Translations under genes and position numbers: made by a program | Shown here: positions 247 to 8,023 of the stretch, one piece after another | How the letters are laid out: each line of letters opens with the position of its first letter | How positions within the stretch are numbered: the first letter of the stretch is position 1 | Source: a virus | IMG/VR virus record: IMGVR_UViG_3300010392_000555 | Coordinates: 1 to 36,392 of that record | Strand: one strand, 5' to 3' | DNA length: 36,392 nt | Notes under the pieces: generated by a model | Databases searched by the model: none | Told to the model about the DNA's origin: nothing | The model's input: only the letters and a program-made list of their open reading frames with translations

Positions 247-624
247 ATGAAAAAAACCCGTAAGAAACCCGTCAAGCATGAGGAACTATTGCAAAAAGAC
301 GTGGTTGAGTTGCTTCTGACGTATGAGGCGCAGAGAAAACTAACCTTCACGGCTGTGACAAACAATGTGCCTTATACAGGTTGGAAAGCAATCAAGAGCA
401 CCGAGAAATTTAAGGAACTTGGTATGCGTCCCGGCTTTCCTGACATGGCGATATTCAGGTTTGAAGGGTTACCTATATTCATTGAATTGAAAAGCAAAAA
501 GGGGCAACTACAGGACAACCAAGAAGACTGGCGCGACACACTGCAAGCCATGGGTTTTAGCTGGTATCTCATTCGCAGCGTTGATGACGTGAAAGAGGTA
601 TTGAAGAAAGAGGGTGTAGTATGA
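247..624 (+). CDS. VRR-NUC domain nuclease
   Basis: This 125-aa protein matches the small stand-alone VRR-NUC nucleases common in phages. The family core is visible: a G-x-PD motif with Asp66, the E-x-K pair Glu80/Lys82 in the segment PIFIELKSKKG, and Gln92 in the following helix, then a G-x-x-x-x-x-x-R-S strand near the C terminus. These fit the PD-(D/E)xK catalytic core, so a metal-dependent DNA nuclease, possibly acting on branched DNA, is expected. The ATG at 247 follows a weak ribosome site (GTGAG). The stop overlaps the start of the next gene (621), so the two are probably co-translated. The N-terminal stretch is very lysine-rich. The family call is firm; the substrate is not known. Confidence 0.85.
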   Translation: MKKTRKKPVKHEELLQKDVVELLLTYEAQRKLTFTAVTNNVPYTGWKAIKSTEKFKELGMRPGFPDMAIFRFEGLPIFIELKSKKGQLQDNQEDWRDTLQAMGFSWYLIRSVDDVKEVLKKEGVV

Positions 625-1928
625 AAAGGGTTTATAAAGAGACAAATGTTTATGATGCTTCAATAAAGCGACTTGATTTTATATTTGAAACTTTTGAGCG
701 CATATATTTGTCATTTTCAGGGGGCAAAGACAGTGGAGTCTTGCTCAATTTAGTTTTGGACTACATGAAGGAACGGTCCATTGATCGGAAGATAGGGGTT
801 CAGATTCTAGACAATGAAGCAAACTATGAATACTCCCTTGAGTTTATGCGCCAGCTTTTGGATGCAAATAGAGACTATCTCGATATTTACTGGTGCTGTC
901 TCCCCATAACCTTACCCTGCACGGTTTCTTCTTATGAGGTTGATTGGCAATGCTGGGGTATTGATGATGAACACCGCTGGGTCCGCCCAATGCCTGATAT
1001 GGATTATGTGGTTAATATAGACAATCACCCCTTTGGGGATATGTTTGAAGAAAATATGAACTATGACCATTTTTGGGATATGTTTTCAGAGTGGTACAGC
1101 CAGGGCAAACCTACCGCCAATCTTATTGGTATAAGGACGGACGAAAGTCTGAACCGTTTTCGCGCAATAATGAACGAGCGCAAAGAAACGATGAAGGGTA
1201 TGCAATGGACGAAAAGGAATACAAAACATTCTTATAATTGCTACCCCATTTATGATTGGCGGACCCGTGATATATGGGTTGCTAACGCAAAGTTTGGATG
1301 GGACTACAATAAACTATACGACACCTTTTATATGGCTGGCGTCCCAATAGGAAAAATGCGTGTCGCAAGCCCCTTTATGTCAGAAGGGAAATCATCATTA
1401 AATCTTTACCGGGTTATTGATGGGCATACATGGGCGAGGCTTTGCGCACGGGTTGCGGGCGCAAACTTTGTGGCGCACTACGGCAAACAACTAGATTACA
1501 AAAGCGTTAAGCTGCCGGATGGTCACACTTGGAAGTCGTTTGTTAAATTCCTCTTAGACACATTACCGTCCGGCCCAGCTATAAATTTTAAGCAGCGCTT
1601 CATTCAGTCCATTAAGTTCTGGGGCAGGAAGGGGCGCGGGTTAGCAAATGAGGTTATTGCAGAACTTGATAAGCATGGCGTGCGCTTTACACTTAACGGC
1701 GTAACACCTCATGGGGGGAATTCTCTTAAAAGAGTTGTTATAAAAACACCGCCTGATCATGTTGATTTTCTGTCTGGGAACAATAGCGCTGTCACGTCAT
1801 GGAAAAGATTTGCGCTAACTATTCTTAAGAACGATCACACTTGCAAATATATGGGGCTTGCGCCGACTAAAGAGCAGGCTTTGAGGCAACGGGAAATTCA
1901 AAAAAAATACAGTGGGATAAAATCATGA
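621..1928 (+). CDS. IbrA/YbdN-type PAPS-reductase-like protein (DUF3440)
   Basis: This 435-aa protein has an N-terminal adenine-nucleotide alpha-hydrolase (PP-loop) fold, with the ATP-binding motif SGGKDS at residues 33-38. It matches phosphoadenosine phosphosulfate reductase-like proteins of the IbrA/YbdN group. Its C terminus carries a TSWKRFALTILKND motif at about 392-405, as in DUF3440 proteins. Real PAPS reductases are shorter and feed cysteine synthesis. In this group, as in DndC-type enzymes, the PP-loop domain is thought to activate a substrate by adenylation, but the substrate is unknown. It overlaps the VRR-NUC gene by 4 bases and the cupin-ParB fusion by 4 bases, so they form one operon. 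IbrA-type genes normally pair with an IbrB (ParB-like) gene, which is what follows. Confidence 0.85.
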   Translation: MKRVYKETNVYDASIKRLDFIFETFERIYLSFSGGKDSGVLLNLVLDYMKERSIDRKIGVQILDNEANYEYSLEFMRQLLDANRDYLDIYWCCLPITLPCTVSSYEVDWQCWGIDDEHRWVRPMPDMDYVVNIDNHPFGDMFEENMNYDHFWDMFSEWYSQGKPTANLIGIRTDESLNRFRAIMNERKETMKGMQWTKRNTKHSYNCYPIYDWRTRDIWVANAKFGWDYNKLYDTFYMAGVPIGKMRVASPFMSEGKSSLNLYRVIDGHTWARLCARVAGANFVAHYGKQLDYKSVKLPDGHTWKSFVKFLLDTLPSGPAINFKQRFIQSIKFWGRKGRGLANEVIAELDKHGVRFTLNGVTPHGGNSLKRVVIKTPPDHVDFLSGNNSAVTSWKRFALTILKNDHTCKYMGLAPTKEQALRQREIQKKYSGIKS

Positions 1929-2845
1929 AAATTATTGATGTTGAAAATCTGCCAGAATCACGAAAGGTCATTTTTGGCACGGGCGTGAGTAATCGGATTT
2001 TATTAGAGAAGGACGGTTGTGGTTACACACTAACTCACACAACCGTATATCCAGGAGAACGGGCTTTTTGGCATTATAAAGATCACATTGAAAGCTGTTA
2101 TTGCATCAGCGGTATTGGCACTCTTGAATGCGCTCGAACAGGGGAAAAGCATACAATCACTCCTGGAATAACTTATGTTCTTGATGATTATGATGCACAC
2201 TATTTTGAGGCGCATGAACCAACAGTTTTGATTTGTGTTTTCAATCCTCCATTGCGGGGGGCAGAGGTTCACGAGGAAGATGGTTCATATCGTACAGGGT
2301 ACAAATCTCCTGTTTATGATGTTAGGGCTGTGCCAATTGAAAAGGTAACGGCTAATGACTACAACCCTAACAGCGTTGCGCCACCAGAAATGGAGCTACT
2401 AGAAACGTCTATTTGGGAGGATGGGTATACGCAGCCGGTTGTGGTGGTGAGAGACTTCGACAATGGCACATACGTTGTCGTGGATGGATTTCATAGATAC
2501 CTAACACTCAAAAACAGTAAGCGCATTAACGAGCGTGAGAATGGAATGCTTCCTGTTGTTATCTTAAACAAAGATATGTCAGACAGGATGGCCTCTACGA
2601 TTCGCCACAACCGAGCAAGGGGCACTCACAACATTGAACTAATGAGCACAATTGTTGCTGAGTTAGTGGAAATGGGGAAGGGTGATAGGTGGATTTGCAA
2701 GCACATTGGAATGTCTTCCGATGAGTTGTTGAGGTTAAAGCAAATTACTGGCCTTGCGGCTCTTTTTCAGAATCAGGACTTCTCTAAAAGTTGGGATGCT
2801 GAAGATTTTGAGGAGGCAATTTTAGAAGATGAGGCTTCCGTTTAA
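1925..2845 (+). CDS. Fusion: EctC-like (ectoine synthase-type) cupin + IbrB/ParB-like domain
   Basis: This 306-aa protein has two recognisable parts. Residues 1 to about 122 look like ectoine synthase (EctC): a cupin with YCISGIG at 59-65 and the family signature CVFNPPL at 104-110, followed by EVHEEDG at 114-120. Glu56, Tyr84 and His92 fall where the reported EctC iron ligands lie (from memory Glu57, Tyr85, His93). Residues from about 130 resemble ParB-like proteins of the IbrB/YbdM group, with DGFHR at 187-191 and RHNRARGTH at 227-235. The ATG overlaps the PAPS-reductase-like stop (ATGA), and the end overlaps the next start. No ectA or ectB is present, so it is unlikely to make ectoine for osmoprotection. 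The cupin may act on a small molecule or modified residue in concert with the PP-loop partner, which is inference. I do not know this fusion as a described architecture. Confidence 0.85.
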   Translation: MKIIDVENLPESRKVIFGTGVSNRILLEKDGCGYTLTHTTVYPGERAFWHYKDHIESCYCISGIGTLECARTGEKHTITPGITYVLDDYDAHYFEAHEPTVLICVFNPPLRGAEVHEEDGSYRTGYKSPVYDVRAVPIEKVTANDYNPNSVAPPEMELLETSIWEDGYTQPVVVVRDFDNGTYVVVDGFHRYLTLKNSKRINERENGMLPVVILNKDMSDRMASTIRHNRARGTHNIELMSTIVAELVEMGKGDRWICKHIGMSSDELLRLKQITGLAALFQNQDFSKSWDAEDFEEAILEDEASV

Positions 2846-3245
2846 GCGTGTGTGGCACCCTTACGAAAAATGGGAGGAAATCCATTTTAATATGTGGGGA
2901 ACGGTGGTTGATAGAAAAGATTTTCTAAGGCGGGCAATAGAGTTTACAGGGAACCATACTTTGTACGGGTCTTACATGATGCGCGTAGTGAAAGGGTGGC
3001 CGATTAGCTGTGAAAATGCGCTAACGGACAACACACTTAACAAAAGAGCATGGATAGGCCATGCCGCCTGTTCTTTGTATATGCGGTGTCCAGAGGACAT
3101 AACGCGGAAGGCTTGGGCGTTTTTGACAAATGAGCAACAATTACTGGCAAATAAAGAAGCACGGCGAGCAATTCAAGAATGGGCGGACCACTACAGAAAG
3201 GGTGGAGGAGTATATAAAGGTCTGGAAGACAAGATGCTATTATGA
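2829..3245 (+). CDS. Conserved hypothetical protein of the IbrAB-type cassette
   Basis: This 138-aa soluble protein is rich in Trp and basic residues. It has no signal peptide or membrane segment. Notable stretches are GWPISCENALTD at about 56-67 and an alpha-helical end with NKEARRAIQEWADH. It starts 17 bases inside the end of the cupin-ParB gene, so it is part of the same transcription and translation unit. I recognise its general look from phage gene neighbourhoods but cannot name a function. The last 116 bases overlap an open frame that continues into the next gene. Both frames look plausible as protein there, which is unusual. Confidence 0.7.
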   Translation: MRLPFKRVWHPYEKWEEIHFNMWGTVVDRKDFLRRAIEFTGNHTLYGSYMMRVVKGWPISCENALTDNTLNKRAWIGHAACSLYMRCPEDITRKAWAFLTNEQQLLANKEARRAIQEWADHYRKGGGVYKGLEDKMLL

Positions 3246-3555
3246 AGATATTCCAGATTGCGTGGACGCTTTGTTAGAACGATCTGGACGGGTTCCAAGT
3301 TACCGCCTTATTGCAATGCAAATATTACGAGGCGACCTAATGCTTTTAGGGCTAGGGTTTTCGTCCCCAGTTTCTAAATATTATTACGACCTTAAAAGAA
3401 AACCATCTAAGCAATTGGAGTTTAGGTTTAATGAGAACGCAGAAACCAGACACAGCAGCCATCCGCAGATCAATGGAATATTGGGCAAAGACAAACCCTC
3501 AATTCCTGGGAACCAACCTTTACGCTCAAATGCAAAGCACTTTGGACTGGATTGA
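3202..3555 (+). CDS. Small protein resembling the C-terminal part of DUF3440 proteins
   Basis: Taken from the GTG at 3202 this is 117 aa; an ATG at 3130 would add 24 residues and a 116-base overlap with the previous gene. Neither start has a well-spaced ribosome site. The segment VPSYRLIAMQILRGD (residues 31-45) resembles TSWKRFALTILKND near the C terminus of the PAPS-reductase-like protein at 621. The preceding KTRCYYEDIPD resembles the region before that motif in YbdN-type proteins, as I remember them. It therefore looks like a detached or duplicated C-terminal DUF3440 module working with the 621-3245 cassette. The last 125 bases overlap the next gene in another frame, so its true C terminus may be a run-on. 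Confidence 0.6.
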   Translation: MEEYIKVWKTRCYYEDIPDCVDALLERSGRVPSYRLIAMQILRGDLMLLGLGFSSPVSKYYYDLKRKPSKQLEFRFNENAETRHSSHPQINGILGKDKPSIPGNQPLRSNAKHFGLD

Positions 3556-6142: not shown

Positions 6143-6293
6143 CGTAAAGCTGCGTCTGGAAGTGATTTTCAGCAACAAAAACCACATTTCTGAGGAGGAC
6201 ATCACCCGGATTGCCAGCGAGCTTGCCGACAAGGCCCAGAAAATGGGGGCGGTGCGGAAGGGCACAACGGGGTGGAGTCGGTCAAAGGAATGA
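6126..6293 (+). CDS. Small hypothetical protein (55 aa)
   Basis: ATG 6126 to TGA 6291-6293 gives a 55-aa protein: a beta-strand-like start (MPELPTVKLRLEVIF), a helix (SEEDITRIASELADKAQKMG) and a basic tail. Its stop overlaps the next start at 6290 (ATGA). It has no family I can name. The duplicated start at 5696 suggests this gene once followed directly after the replication-type gene. Confidence 0.6.
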   Translation: MPELPTVKLRLEVIFSNKNHISEEDITRIASELADKAQKMGAVRKGTTGWSRSKE

Positions 6294-8023
6294 TTGCAGT
6301 CTATGACCTGAAACACGCCCCGGTTACATTTGATTTCCTGAGTTTTTTAGCTGTTGCGGACTGCACCCGGCAGTTAATGGGCCATGATGGGATAGACCTT
6401 TACATTGTGGCAGGGGAATATCGCCAATGGTCAGCGCGAGACATGGAGACATCAGACGCAGAAAAGGAATGGCGGATTTACGGAATATTGTTGGAAAGCA
6501 CAAAACTACTACCCAGCATTCAATCCGTCCACATTACCAGAGAGCGGCCTTCTGTTTATGATTTCCCGGCTCAATACCATGACACCGGGGAAGTTCCATA
6601 CCTGCCGAAAGATGTGGTTCCGCTATATGAGCAAGGTGCTGACCCGCTGTGCTTCAAAGCCCCTGCCTTTGCCGAGGAAATCACCCCGCCTTGTGATGTT
6701 ACCTTAACCCTAAGAACAAGCCGGCACTTCCCAGAACGCAATGTGGACCTGGATGAGTGGTATAAATTCCACCAACACCTAAAATCCCAGGGTAAGACGG
6801 TGCTGGTTATCCCAGACCAGGAAGACCCCGGAGAATGGCAAAAATACGACTGGAAAGCCTACCTGCCAGCGGCCTACGATATTCGCTTGAGGTTTGCGCT
6901 GTATGAACAGGCGGAGATGAATTATTGCAGCGCCAACGGTCCATGCGCTGGGTTGTTCTACTCAAACGCCCCTTATTCTCTGTTTGATTCCACCCGTGGG
7001 GTATTTAGCCCAGAAAACTACGTTTTTGCCTATGGTCAATATGGCGGGCAGCATCCATGGGCGTTGCCTAATCAGTGCCTAAAGTGGGCGGATAGCAGCT
7101 TTACAACGCTGACATCTGACAACATCACAGACCATATCCCCCCAACAGCCCCGGCCATCAAGAAAACCCGTATCACTAAAGCGGAGATATTAGACCGCAC
7201 TCGAAACATTATGGATTCGGATATACCTTCATTGAAGTCTCTCAAAAACGTATGCCATGGAGAGACGGCTATAATTGTTGGGGGTGGGCCATCGCTTGCA
7301 GATCACATGGGAACGCTGCGGAAACTCTCAAAAAAAAGAGGGCATAAAATCCTCTGCACGAATAAAACCTACGATTACCTGATTAAACGTAACTTCGACC
7401 CATGGGCTGTGGTATTGTTGGACCCGCTGCAACACGTCGCGGACTATGTTAAACTGGCTACGCCGGAAACGAGGGTTTTTCTTGCAACTCAATGTCACCC
7501 GGACACATGGAAATCCGTAGAGCACACCAAACGCTATCATTGGATAGCCTCAGACAACCGGCATGGTGACAACTTCCCTCTTGATTGGATGCGGGAGAAT
7601 TACCCGGACAGAGAATGGGTCATTAATGGAGGGGGGAATACAGGCGGATTAAGGGCTATCTATTGCGCTTATGAGCTTGGATTCAGAGACTTCCACTTGA
7701 TTGGTTTCGACTCAAGCATGAAAGACGGCAGTTTATACGCCTATGACAAAGAACACCCAAAGGATGCCGCTGAAGGTCCGGCTACCCTGGAAATGAACGG
7801 CCATATCCAAGAGTTCTACACCAACGAGCACATGGCCAAGCAGGTAGAGAACTTCGAGGACATGCTAAAGCAGATATTCCTCTATCTGGACCAGGGGACA
7901 TGGGAGCCGATCAATATGACGGTTTACGGGGATGGTATGTTGCCTAGCCTCGCCGCAGCTTATGGTCTGCATGCTGACCCTGAGATGAACAAAAGATGGG
8001 CGAAAACAGAAAAAGGTGTATAA
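6290..8023 (+). CDS. DUF115 (MptE-like) protein, possible glycosyl- or nucleotidyl-transfer enzyme
   Basis: This 577-aa protein has a C-terminal half that matches the DUF115 / 6-hydroxymethylpterin diphosphokinase MptE-like domain. The motif TAIIVGGGPSLADH lies near residue 330, followed by ILCTNKTYDYLI, WAVVLLDP and a late NGGGNTGGLRA plus FHLIGFDSS block. In bacteria such domains occur in flagellin or surface-sugar transfer proteins. The N-terminal 300 residues are less clear and may be a second sugar-binding or Rossmann-like part. I chose ATG 6290 (ATGA overlap) over GTG 6272. It lies just upstream of the terminase genes, a common place for accessory genes. It may modify host surface or phage glycans; the substrate is unknown. 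Confidence 0.7.
   Translation: MIAVYDLKHAPVTFDFLSFLAVADCTRQLMGHDGIDLYIVAGEYRQWSARDMETSDAEKEWRIYGILLESTKLLPSIQSVHITRERPSVYDFPAQYHDTGEVPYLPKDVVPLYEQGADPLCFKAPAFAEEITPPCDVTLTLRTSRHFPERNVDLDEWYKFHQHLKSQGKTVLVIPDQEDPGEWQKYDWKAYLPAAYDIRLRFALYEQAEMNYCSANGPCAGLFYSNAPYSLFDSTRGVFSPENYVFAYGQYGGQHPWALPNQCLKWADSSFTTLTSDNITDHIPPTAPAIKKTRITKAEILDRTRNIMDSDIPSLKSLKNVCHGETAIIVGGGPSLADHMGTLRKLSKKRGHKILCTNKTYDYLIKRNFDPWAVVLLDPLQHVADYVKLATPETRVFLATQCHPDTWKSVEHTKRYHWIASDNRHGDNFPLDWMRENYPDREWVINGGGNTGGLRAIYCAYELGFRDFHLIGFDSSMKDGSLYAYDKEHPKDAAEGPATLEMNGHIQEFYTNEHMAKQVENFEDMLKQIFLYLDQGTWEPINMTVYGDGMLPSLAAAYGLHADPEMNKRWAKTEKGV

Follow-up and report, generated by a model that had tools for sequence, protein, structure and literature searches.

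What might a phage do with four overlapping genes that join a PP-loop enzyme and a ParB-like protein to a relative of ectoine synthase? The question is raised by IMG/VR record IMGVR_UViG_3300010392_000555, a 36,392-base linear viral contig (referred to at its full length as the window) from a P22-like podovirus with P22-type portal, coat and tail accessory proteins, which carries such a cassette on the plus strand at positions 621–3555. Our tentative best explanation is that the cassette encodes a multi-enzyme system that would build an ectoine-like six-membered cyclic amidine (a tetrahydropyrimidine), most probably on phage nucleic acid or a nucleotide.

The open reading frame (ORF) coordinates, with successive overlaps of 4, 17 and 116 nucleotides, bear out the single operon described in an earlier note made from the sequence alone, and profile searches upheld all the domain identities proposed there, including the PP-loop motif and the ParB domain. 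The first gene (g1, ibrA; 621–1928) encodes a 435-residue putative PP-loop adenylating enzyme of the 'long' type of the DUF3440/IbrA/YbdN family (PF11922, PF01507 and phrog_2302), with the motif SGGKDS at residues 33–38 (positions 717–734). The second (g2; 1925–2845) encodes a 306-residue protein in which an EctC-like cupin (1925–2293) is fused to an IbrB domain of the ParB/Srx fold (2306–2845), as judged by profiles and alignment. These are followed by g3 (2829–3245), which encodes a small all-helical protein of 138 residues that is a conserved partner with no known fold, and by g4 (3130–3555), a free-standing DUF3440 C-terminal module of 141 residues that overlaps g3 in another frame.

When g2 was searched against 2.9 million viral contigs, 186 relatives emerged, and in the loci read first among these the order ibrA, cupin–ibrB, g3, g4 was the rule; scans seeded with g3 alone or with the cupin alone returned the same cassette. 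Removal of duplicates left 106 distinct EctC-type cupin sequences. IbrB accompanies 104 of them, and the remaining two contigs stop right after the cupin. All 97 cupins with enough flanking sequence have ibrA as a neighbour, which lies upstream in 96 cases and in the 97th (locus L244) closes a permuted operon, g2–g3–g4–ibrA, while g3 and g4 were both found in 92/92 cupin loci with room for them. The cupin and IbrB form a single protein in 86 of the 104 loci and two adjacent ORFs in the other 18 (for example in Pseudoalteromonas phage XCL1123 and the Planctomycetota contig L085), which argues that the two are functionally linked whether or not they are fused. The ordered set of a DUF3440 gene, a cupin–ParB gene and two small genes that the earlier note had proposed to look for is thus a conserved unit and not a scatter of genes.

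The four genes almost certainly work together. Their carriers, which include Mycobacterium phage Gaia and phage XCL1123 as well as the P22-like podovirus of the window, are otherwise different phages, and in trees of both IbrA and the IbrB domain every cupin carrier falls in one clade with 100/100 support. This points to a probable single acquisition of the cupin and its later spread among different phage backbones. Phage early regions are mosaic, and unrelated accessory genes may come to lie side by side by coincidence; here, chance adjacency has a negligible probability because the whole cassette is conserved, in permuted and split forms as well, across varied backbones and within one clade of two gene trees. 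Among 50,697 phage records an EctC-type domain occurs in five, four of which hold the cassette. The fifth, MT835761.1 (L187), is labelled 'Bacteriophage sp.' and is a bacterial-looking contig with an ectB-like aminotransferase gene beside ectC. A control scan of the viral contigs with bona fide EctC gave no match and is uninformative on how frequent unlinked viral EctC may be.

We note some variation in individual cassettes. GIY-YIG-like ORFs, probably homing endonucleases, occur at differing insertion points in two loci (L002:6890–7264 and L030:2532–2852). In another (L158:3736–4485) a 1-Cys peroxiredoxin gene (AhpC-TSA, 2.6e-24) stands between ibrA and ibrB where the cupin would be, and as the IbrA of this locus is nested within the cupin clade, the peroxiredoxin seems to have taken the cupin's place. 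This is curious given that sulfiredoxin and IbrB have the same fold.

The cupin itself is clearly related to ectoine synthase. Residues 1–123 of the window g2 match Ectoine_synth (PF06339; 1.2e-37, 129.4 bits against a Pfam cut-off of 27), pass the NCBIfam ectoine synthase cut-off (129.7 versus 128 bits) and match ectoine synthases in the PDB (5onn, 1.8e-28). The iron of the P. lautus enzyme (PlEctC) has Glu57, Tyr84 and His92 as its ligands, each of them essential, and the substrate is contacted by Trp21, Arg25, Asn38, Thr40, Tyr52 and Glu57; Trp21 is shared by 582 EctC-type proteins, of which 437 are encoded in operons and 145 are orphans (PMC6344544). The positions corresponding to E57, Y84, H92, S23, R25, T40 and Y52 are invariant in all 102 distinct phage cupins compared, whereas Trp21 is present in none, with Phe in 78 and a gap in 24, and the Asn38 position is Thr in 95/102. 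In the window cupin the iron ligands are E56, Y84 and H92, no residue aligns with Trp21, and Thr stands at position 38. Phage cupins have in common with EctC (P. lautus 5onn and S. alaskensis 5bxx) the fold, the iron ligands, S23, R25, T40, Y52 and mostly F106, and differ in the loss of Trp21, the replacement of Asn38, a place fused to or beside ParB, and the lack of ectAB partners.

Judged from these residues, the cupin is very likely to be a catalytically active EctC-type enzyme. The retention of the iron site together with the loss of Trp21 points to a cyclodehydratase that acts on something other than free N-gamma-acetyl-diaminobutyrate, and so probably to an enzyme with a changed substrate. 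The earlier proposal that the cupin adds an enzymatic step is strongly supported, both by the invariant iron site and by the EctD-like gene that adjoins it in three loci. The score above the ectoine synthase cut-off might instead be taken to mean that the cupin serves as an auxiliary metabolic gene, providing the infected host with ectoine for osmoprotection, and a 2026 survey counts viral 'ectoine synthase' among such genes for salinity adaptation (PMC13079714). This is very unlikely: IbrA, IbrB, g3 and g4 are present wherever the contigs allow, Trp21 is lost in every copy, and one carrier, Gaia, is a soil mycobacteriophage. Furthermore, EctA was not found in the 27 records in which it was sought, several of which are fragments, nor was a class III aminotransferase (EctB) in two viral EctD-bearing records, and nothing thus indicates that these phages synthesise the usual ectoine precursor on their own.

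The nature of the product is indicated by EctD-like hydroxylase genes, which lie within the cassette at three loci (L274, L084 and L321); none was seen in the window. In L274 the gene (E 9e-44 to the PDB EctD 3emr) lies between ibrA and a 499-residue g2 (L274:3512–5011) with an extra domain of about 190 residues between the cupin and ParB, for which Pfam makes no call and which from its motif looks like a class I S-adenosylmethionine methyltransferase. In L321 the order is ibrA, EctD-like, cupin, ibrB, g3, g4, and in L084, a contig from an Acidobacteria metagenome-assembled genome, the gene follows cupin–IbrB and its product (E 2e-69 to PDB 4mhr) exceeds the NCBIfam ectoine hydroxylase cut-off (371 versus 336.5 bits). 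Scans of the 2.9 million viral contigs for EctD-like proteins, in which IbrAB was not used and whose pattern search was not exhaustive, found two, L274 and L321, both in cassettes. All three proteins share 31–45% identity with SaEctD and have the iron ligands and most product-binding residues in common with EctD (3emr and 4mhr), including Gln127, His144, Thr149, Trp150 and Arg280, which bind 5-hydroxyectoine (PMC6890836); they differ from known EctD in where their genes are placed. The three loci fall on two or more branches within the cupin clade. On this striking association, we consider it likely that the product holds an ectoine-like ring.

The assignment of the window IbrA to the DUF3440/IbrA family is secure, as it has the domain (PF11922, 5.6e-56, 189.6 bits against a cut-off of 25; phrog_2302, 1.5e-110), the PP-loop and an adjoining ibrB, and SGGKDS is invariant in the 35 IbrA sequences compared. 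It also matches PF01507 (PAPS_reduct, 1.9e-10, 41.5 bits), and a structure search with its predicted model (predicted local distance difference test, pLDDT, 80.7; predicted template modelling score, pTM, 0.64) returned the folds of the 3'-phosphoadenosine 5'-phosphosulfate (PAPS) reductase CysH, CysD and FAD synthase at E-values of 1e-6 to 1e-5, although direct PDB sequence searches with IbrA or its profile found nothing useful. PAPS reductase, CysD and FAD synthase all bind or transfer adenylyl groups. A CysH-type PAPS reductase was considered and rejected, as the C-terminal ECGxH is absent in 35/35 IbrAs and scores are 18–21 bits against cut-offs of 154–165. An adenylyl-enzyme fold without ECGxH and with a single invariant cysteine (C93) leads us to propose that IbrA adenylates its substrate, on which an amide or amidine is then formed.

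The same evidence bears on a DndC/SspD-like DNA phosphorothioation system, to which the cassette had at first been likened. IbrA belongs to the PAPS-reductase-like PP-loop class and has weak DndC profile matches, and the DGxHR motif of IbrB resembles the DGQHR family of DndB, but the analogy reduces to shared PP-loop ancestry: the DndC score is 20.2 bits against a cut-off of 290.4, C93 is the only invariant cysteine, no cysteine desulfurase was seen, and a cyclodehydratase would have no role. We regard such a system as highly improbable. A PADLOC search for defence systems gave nothing beyond weak DndC, BrxP and PDC-M38A matches. The earlier note also suggested that the cassette could act in anti-defence or superinfection.

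The IbrB domain (g2 residues 116–299) matches phrog_2159 at 4.9e-78, and its DGxHR motif, DGFHR at positions 2483–2497 of the window, is found in 24/24 sequences. Structures show a weak likeness to SbnI and ParB, which for SbnI is at the level of fold only: the domain scores 21.8 bits against the 58.45-bit cut-off of the partition ParB family TIGR00180, and 18.7 against 350 bits as an SbnI/SerK free serine kinase. Members of the ParB/Srx fold bind CTP, ATP or GTP (PMC12704722). Relatives without a cupin, the ordinary IbrA/IbrB (YbdN/YbdM) pairs, share about 35–47% (IbrA) and 50–72% (IbrB domain) identity with the window proteins and have the same adjacency, but such loci (30, mostly in bacterial genomes and with long IbrA) lack the cupin, g3 and free g4. 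We found no description of the biochemical role of this widespread phage and prophage pair in the literature searched. It takes its name as a pair of regulators and is annotated, from E. coli ECOR-9, as co-activating prophage gene expression, and as cupins can be sensor domains and IbrB ends in a helix-turn-helix-like segment, the cupin could be a ligand-sensing part of such a co-activator. We think this unlikely, as a sensor does not account for a complete iron site in 102/102 cupins, an invariant PP-loop, a cupin that is a separate ORF in 18/104 loci or EctD-like enzymes beside it.

No significant Pfam, PHROG, NCBIfam or PADLOC family was found for g3, and its confident all-helical AlphaFold model (pLDDT 91.4) has no relative among PDB structures (best E 2.2). 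It is not specific to the cupin, as a scan with a divergent g3 gave 493 viral relatives, and in the 80 loci kept for neighbourhood analysis a recurring cupin-less order is ibrB, g3, ibrA(short), in which the short IbrA ends in a g4-like module; cultured examples are Pseudomonas phage Amjad_SA and Microcystis phage Mwe-JY13. This suggests that g3 accompanies the g4 module, which may be part of a short IbrA or a separate protein next to a long IbrA. The likeness of g4 to the DUF3440 C-terminus (phrog_15645, 0.0036; hhalign to the IbrA C-terminus, 94%, E 1.1e-7) is supported by its hidden Markov model, which matches the C-terminus of nearly all cupin-less IbrAs, while the residues beyond about 100 are an extension specific to the window. 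One locus (L266:220–4033) has the order long ibrA, ibrB, g3, short ibrA and is likely to be an evolutionary intermediate, and from this order we infer that g4 is the remnant of a second, short IbrA. A spurious ORF over g3 was ruled out: the overlap, 116 nucleotides in the window and mostly 116–131 elsewhere, has 1 stop in 2558 codons of the g4 frame compared to 398 in 6157 codons of the same frame upstream (62 distinct g3 genes), and genuinely codes in two frames.

We suggest the following chemistry. The PP-loop of IbrA would adenylate a carboxyl or base carbonyl and drive amide or amidine formation with a diamino-acid-like group, after which the iron-bound cupin would join the amide to an adjacent amine in a ring, releasing water. 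Where a phage has the EctD-like dioxygenase, this enzyme might then hydroxylate the ring, and the methyltransferase-like insert of one locus may decorate it further. IbrB would be a nucleoside triphosphate-binding partner that loads the enzymes on their target or gates the reaction, and g3 and the g4 module would dock IbrA/IbrB on the target, often with a superfamily 2 (SF2) helicase. Here we infer three things: the adenylation, ring closure on a conjugate and not on free N-acetyl-diaminobutyrate, and a nucleic acid target. For the last of these the likelihood falls only a little short of even. An SF2 helicase lies near 85/152 cupin loci, and PD-(D/E)XK, DUF3799, YqaJ, VRR-NUC and RecT recombination genes are found near the cassette, all of which would fit a DNA target. 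We note that SNF2/ResIII-type helicase genes also adjoin IbrAB pairs that lack a cupin, in Flavobacterium, Streptococcus and Fusobacterium phages (L185, L186 and L184), which suggests that association with a helicase is a general trait of IbrAB.

A different product, a free ectoine-like molecule or conjugate used for host takeover or counter-defence (for example by serving as an inhibitor, a decoy or a modified amino acid), is less likely, though it is the alternative we take most seriously. Free small molecules are the usual targets of EctC and EctD, the product-binding residues of EctD are kept, and the ParB/Srx fold includes SbnI, annotated as an O-phosphoserine synthase. However, this would leave the obligatory IbrA, IbrB and g3/g4 linkage and the helicase and recombination neighbours unexplained, and the precursor genes were not found where they were sought. 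Several points do weigh against the modification system that we prefer. The IbrA model is of only moderate quality, and it resembles PAPS reductase, CysD and FAD synthase and not a known base-modifying ligase. The change at Asn38 is weaker evidence because this position varies in true EctCs too, being His in S. alaskensis, and most copies have Phe near the Trp21 position, so that the cupin may still take host-made N-acetyl-diaminobutyrate. Both of the EctD-like proteins from viral contigs are below the ectoine hydroxylase equivalog cut-off, and EctD is promiscuous. Finally, the recombination and helicase neighbourhood could just be where phages keep accessory genes.

The window itself provides one such neighbour, a VRR-NUC nuclease gene (247–624, plus strand; PF08774, 1.8e-10) which shares 4 nucleotides with the start of ibrA and may belong to the same operon. 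It is not a conserved part of the cassette, as in about 22 loci VRR-NUC genes lie near it but at other positions. Further downstream, just before the terminase region, is a gene for an MptE-like protein of 583 residues (6272–8023; PF01973, 4.5e-20).

Some of this has been recorded before. The IbrAB pair is known, and Mycobacterium phage Gaia has the same cassette as genes 103–107 (KJ567043), of which gene 104 is annotated as an 'ectoine synthase/ParB multidomain protein'; it differs from the window in a GIY-YIG-like ORF between g2 and g3, and its g3 and g4 are annotated as hypothetical only. The open-licence literature searched yielded no account of the four-gene system or the function of the fusion, of how g3 and g4 fit together, or of the changed EctC site and the association with EctD, and the main text of a 2025 survey of ParB folds mentions neither cupin nor ectoine (PMC12704722). 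Two parallels come from DNA modification. As a precedent for a nucleic acid target, the phage CmoA–CmoX–CmoY system hypermodifies DNA by means of CmoY, an adenosine monophosphate-forming amide ligase often found with ParBc-domain genes nearby (PMC12783734). CmoY is homologous to asparagine synthetase and is not PAPS-reductase-like, and the Cmo system has no cyclase and needs the CmoX methyltransferase. In the Dpd 7-deazaguanine system (DpdA/DpdB) a ParB-like ATPase partners a DNA-modifying enzyme (PMC12839542), whereas the cassette has no TGT/DpdA and its IbrA is no relative of DpdA. A pair of genes that resembles Dpd lies roughly 3 kb away from the IbrAB of Fusobacterium phage phiFN37, where a queuine tRNA-ribosyltransferase gene comes immediately after a second ParB-like gene (L184:8754–9275).

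The recruitment of an EctC-type cyclase and, in some lineages, of an EctD-type hydroxylase sharply narrows the chemistry of IbrAB, whose product should have an amide and amine pair that can be closed to a cyclic amidine, and in g3 the cassette holds a conserved protein without a known structural relative. It is possible, if somewhat doubtful, that phage DNA or tRNA is hypermodified with an ectoine- or hydroxyectoine-like tetrahydropyrimidine, with IbrB, g3 and g4 providing the targeting and plain IbrAB being a simpler form of the system. If our preferred explanation is true, an ectoine-like ring is built onto a phage substrate, possibly the phage's own DNA, which no described system does, and viral 'ectoine synthase' would no longer be read as a gene for osmoprotection. 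The presence of the cassette in the cultured phage Gaia, which grows on M. smegmatis mc2 155, makes the chemistry of IbrAB directly testable.

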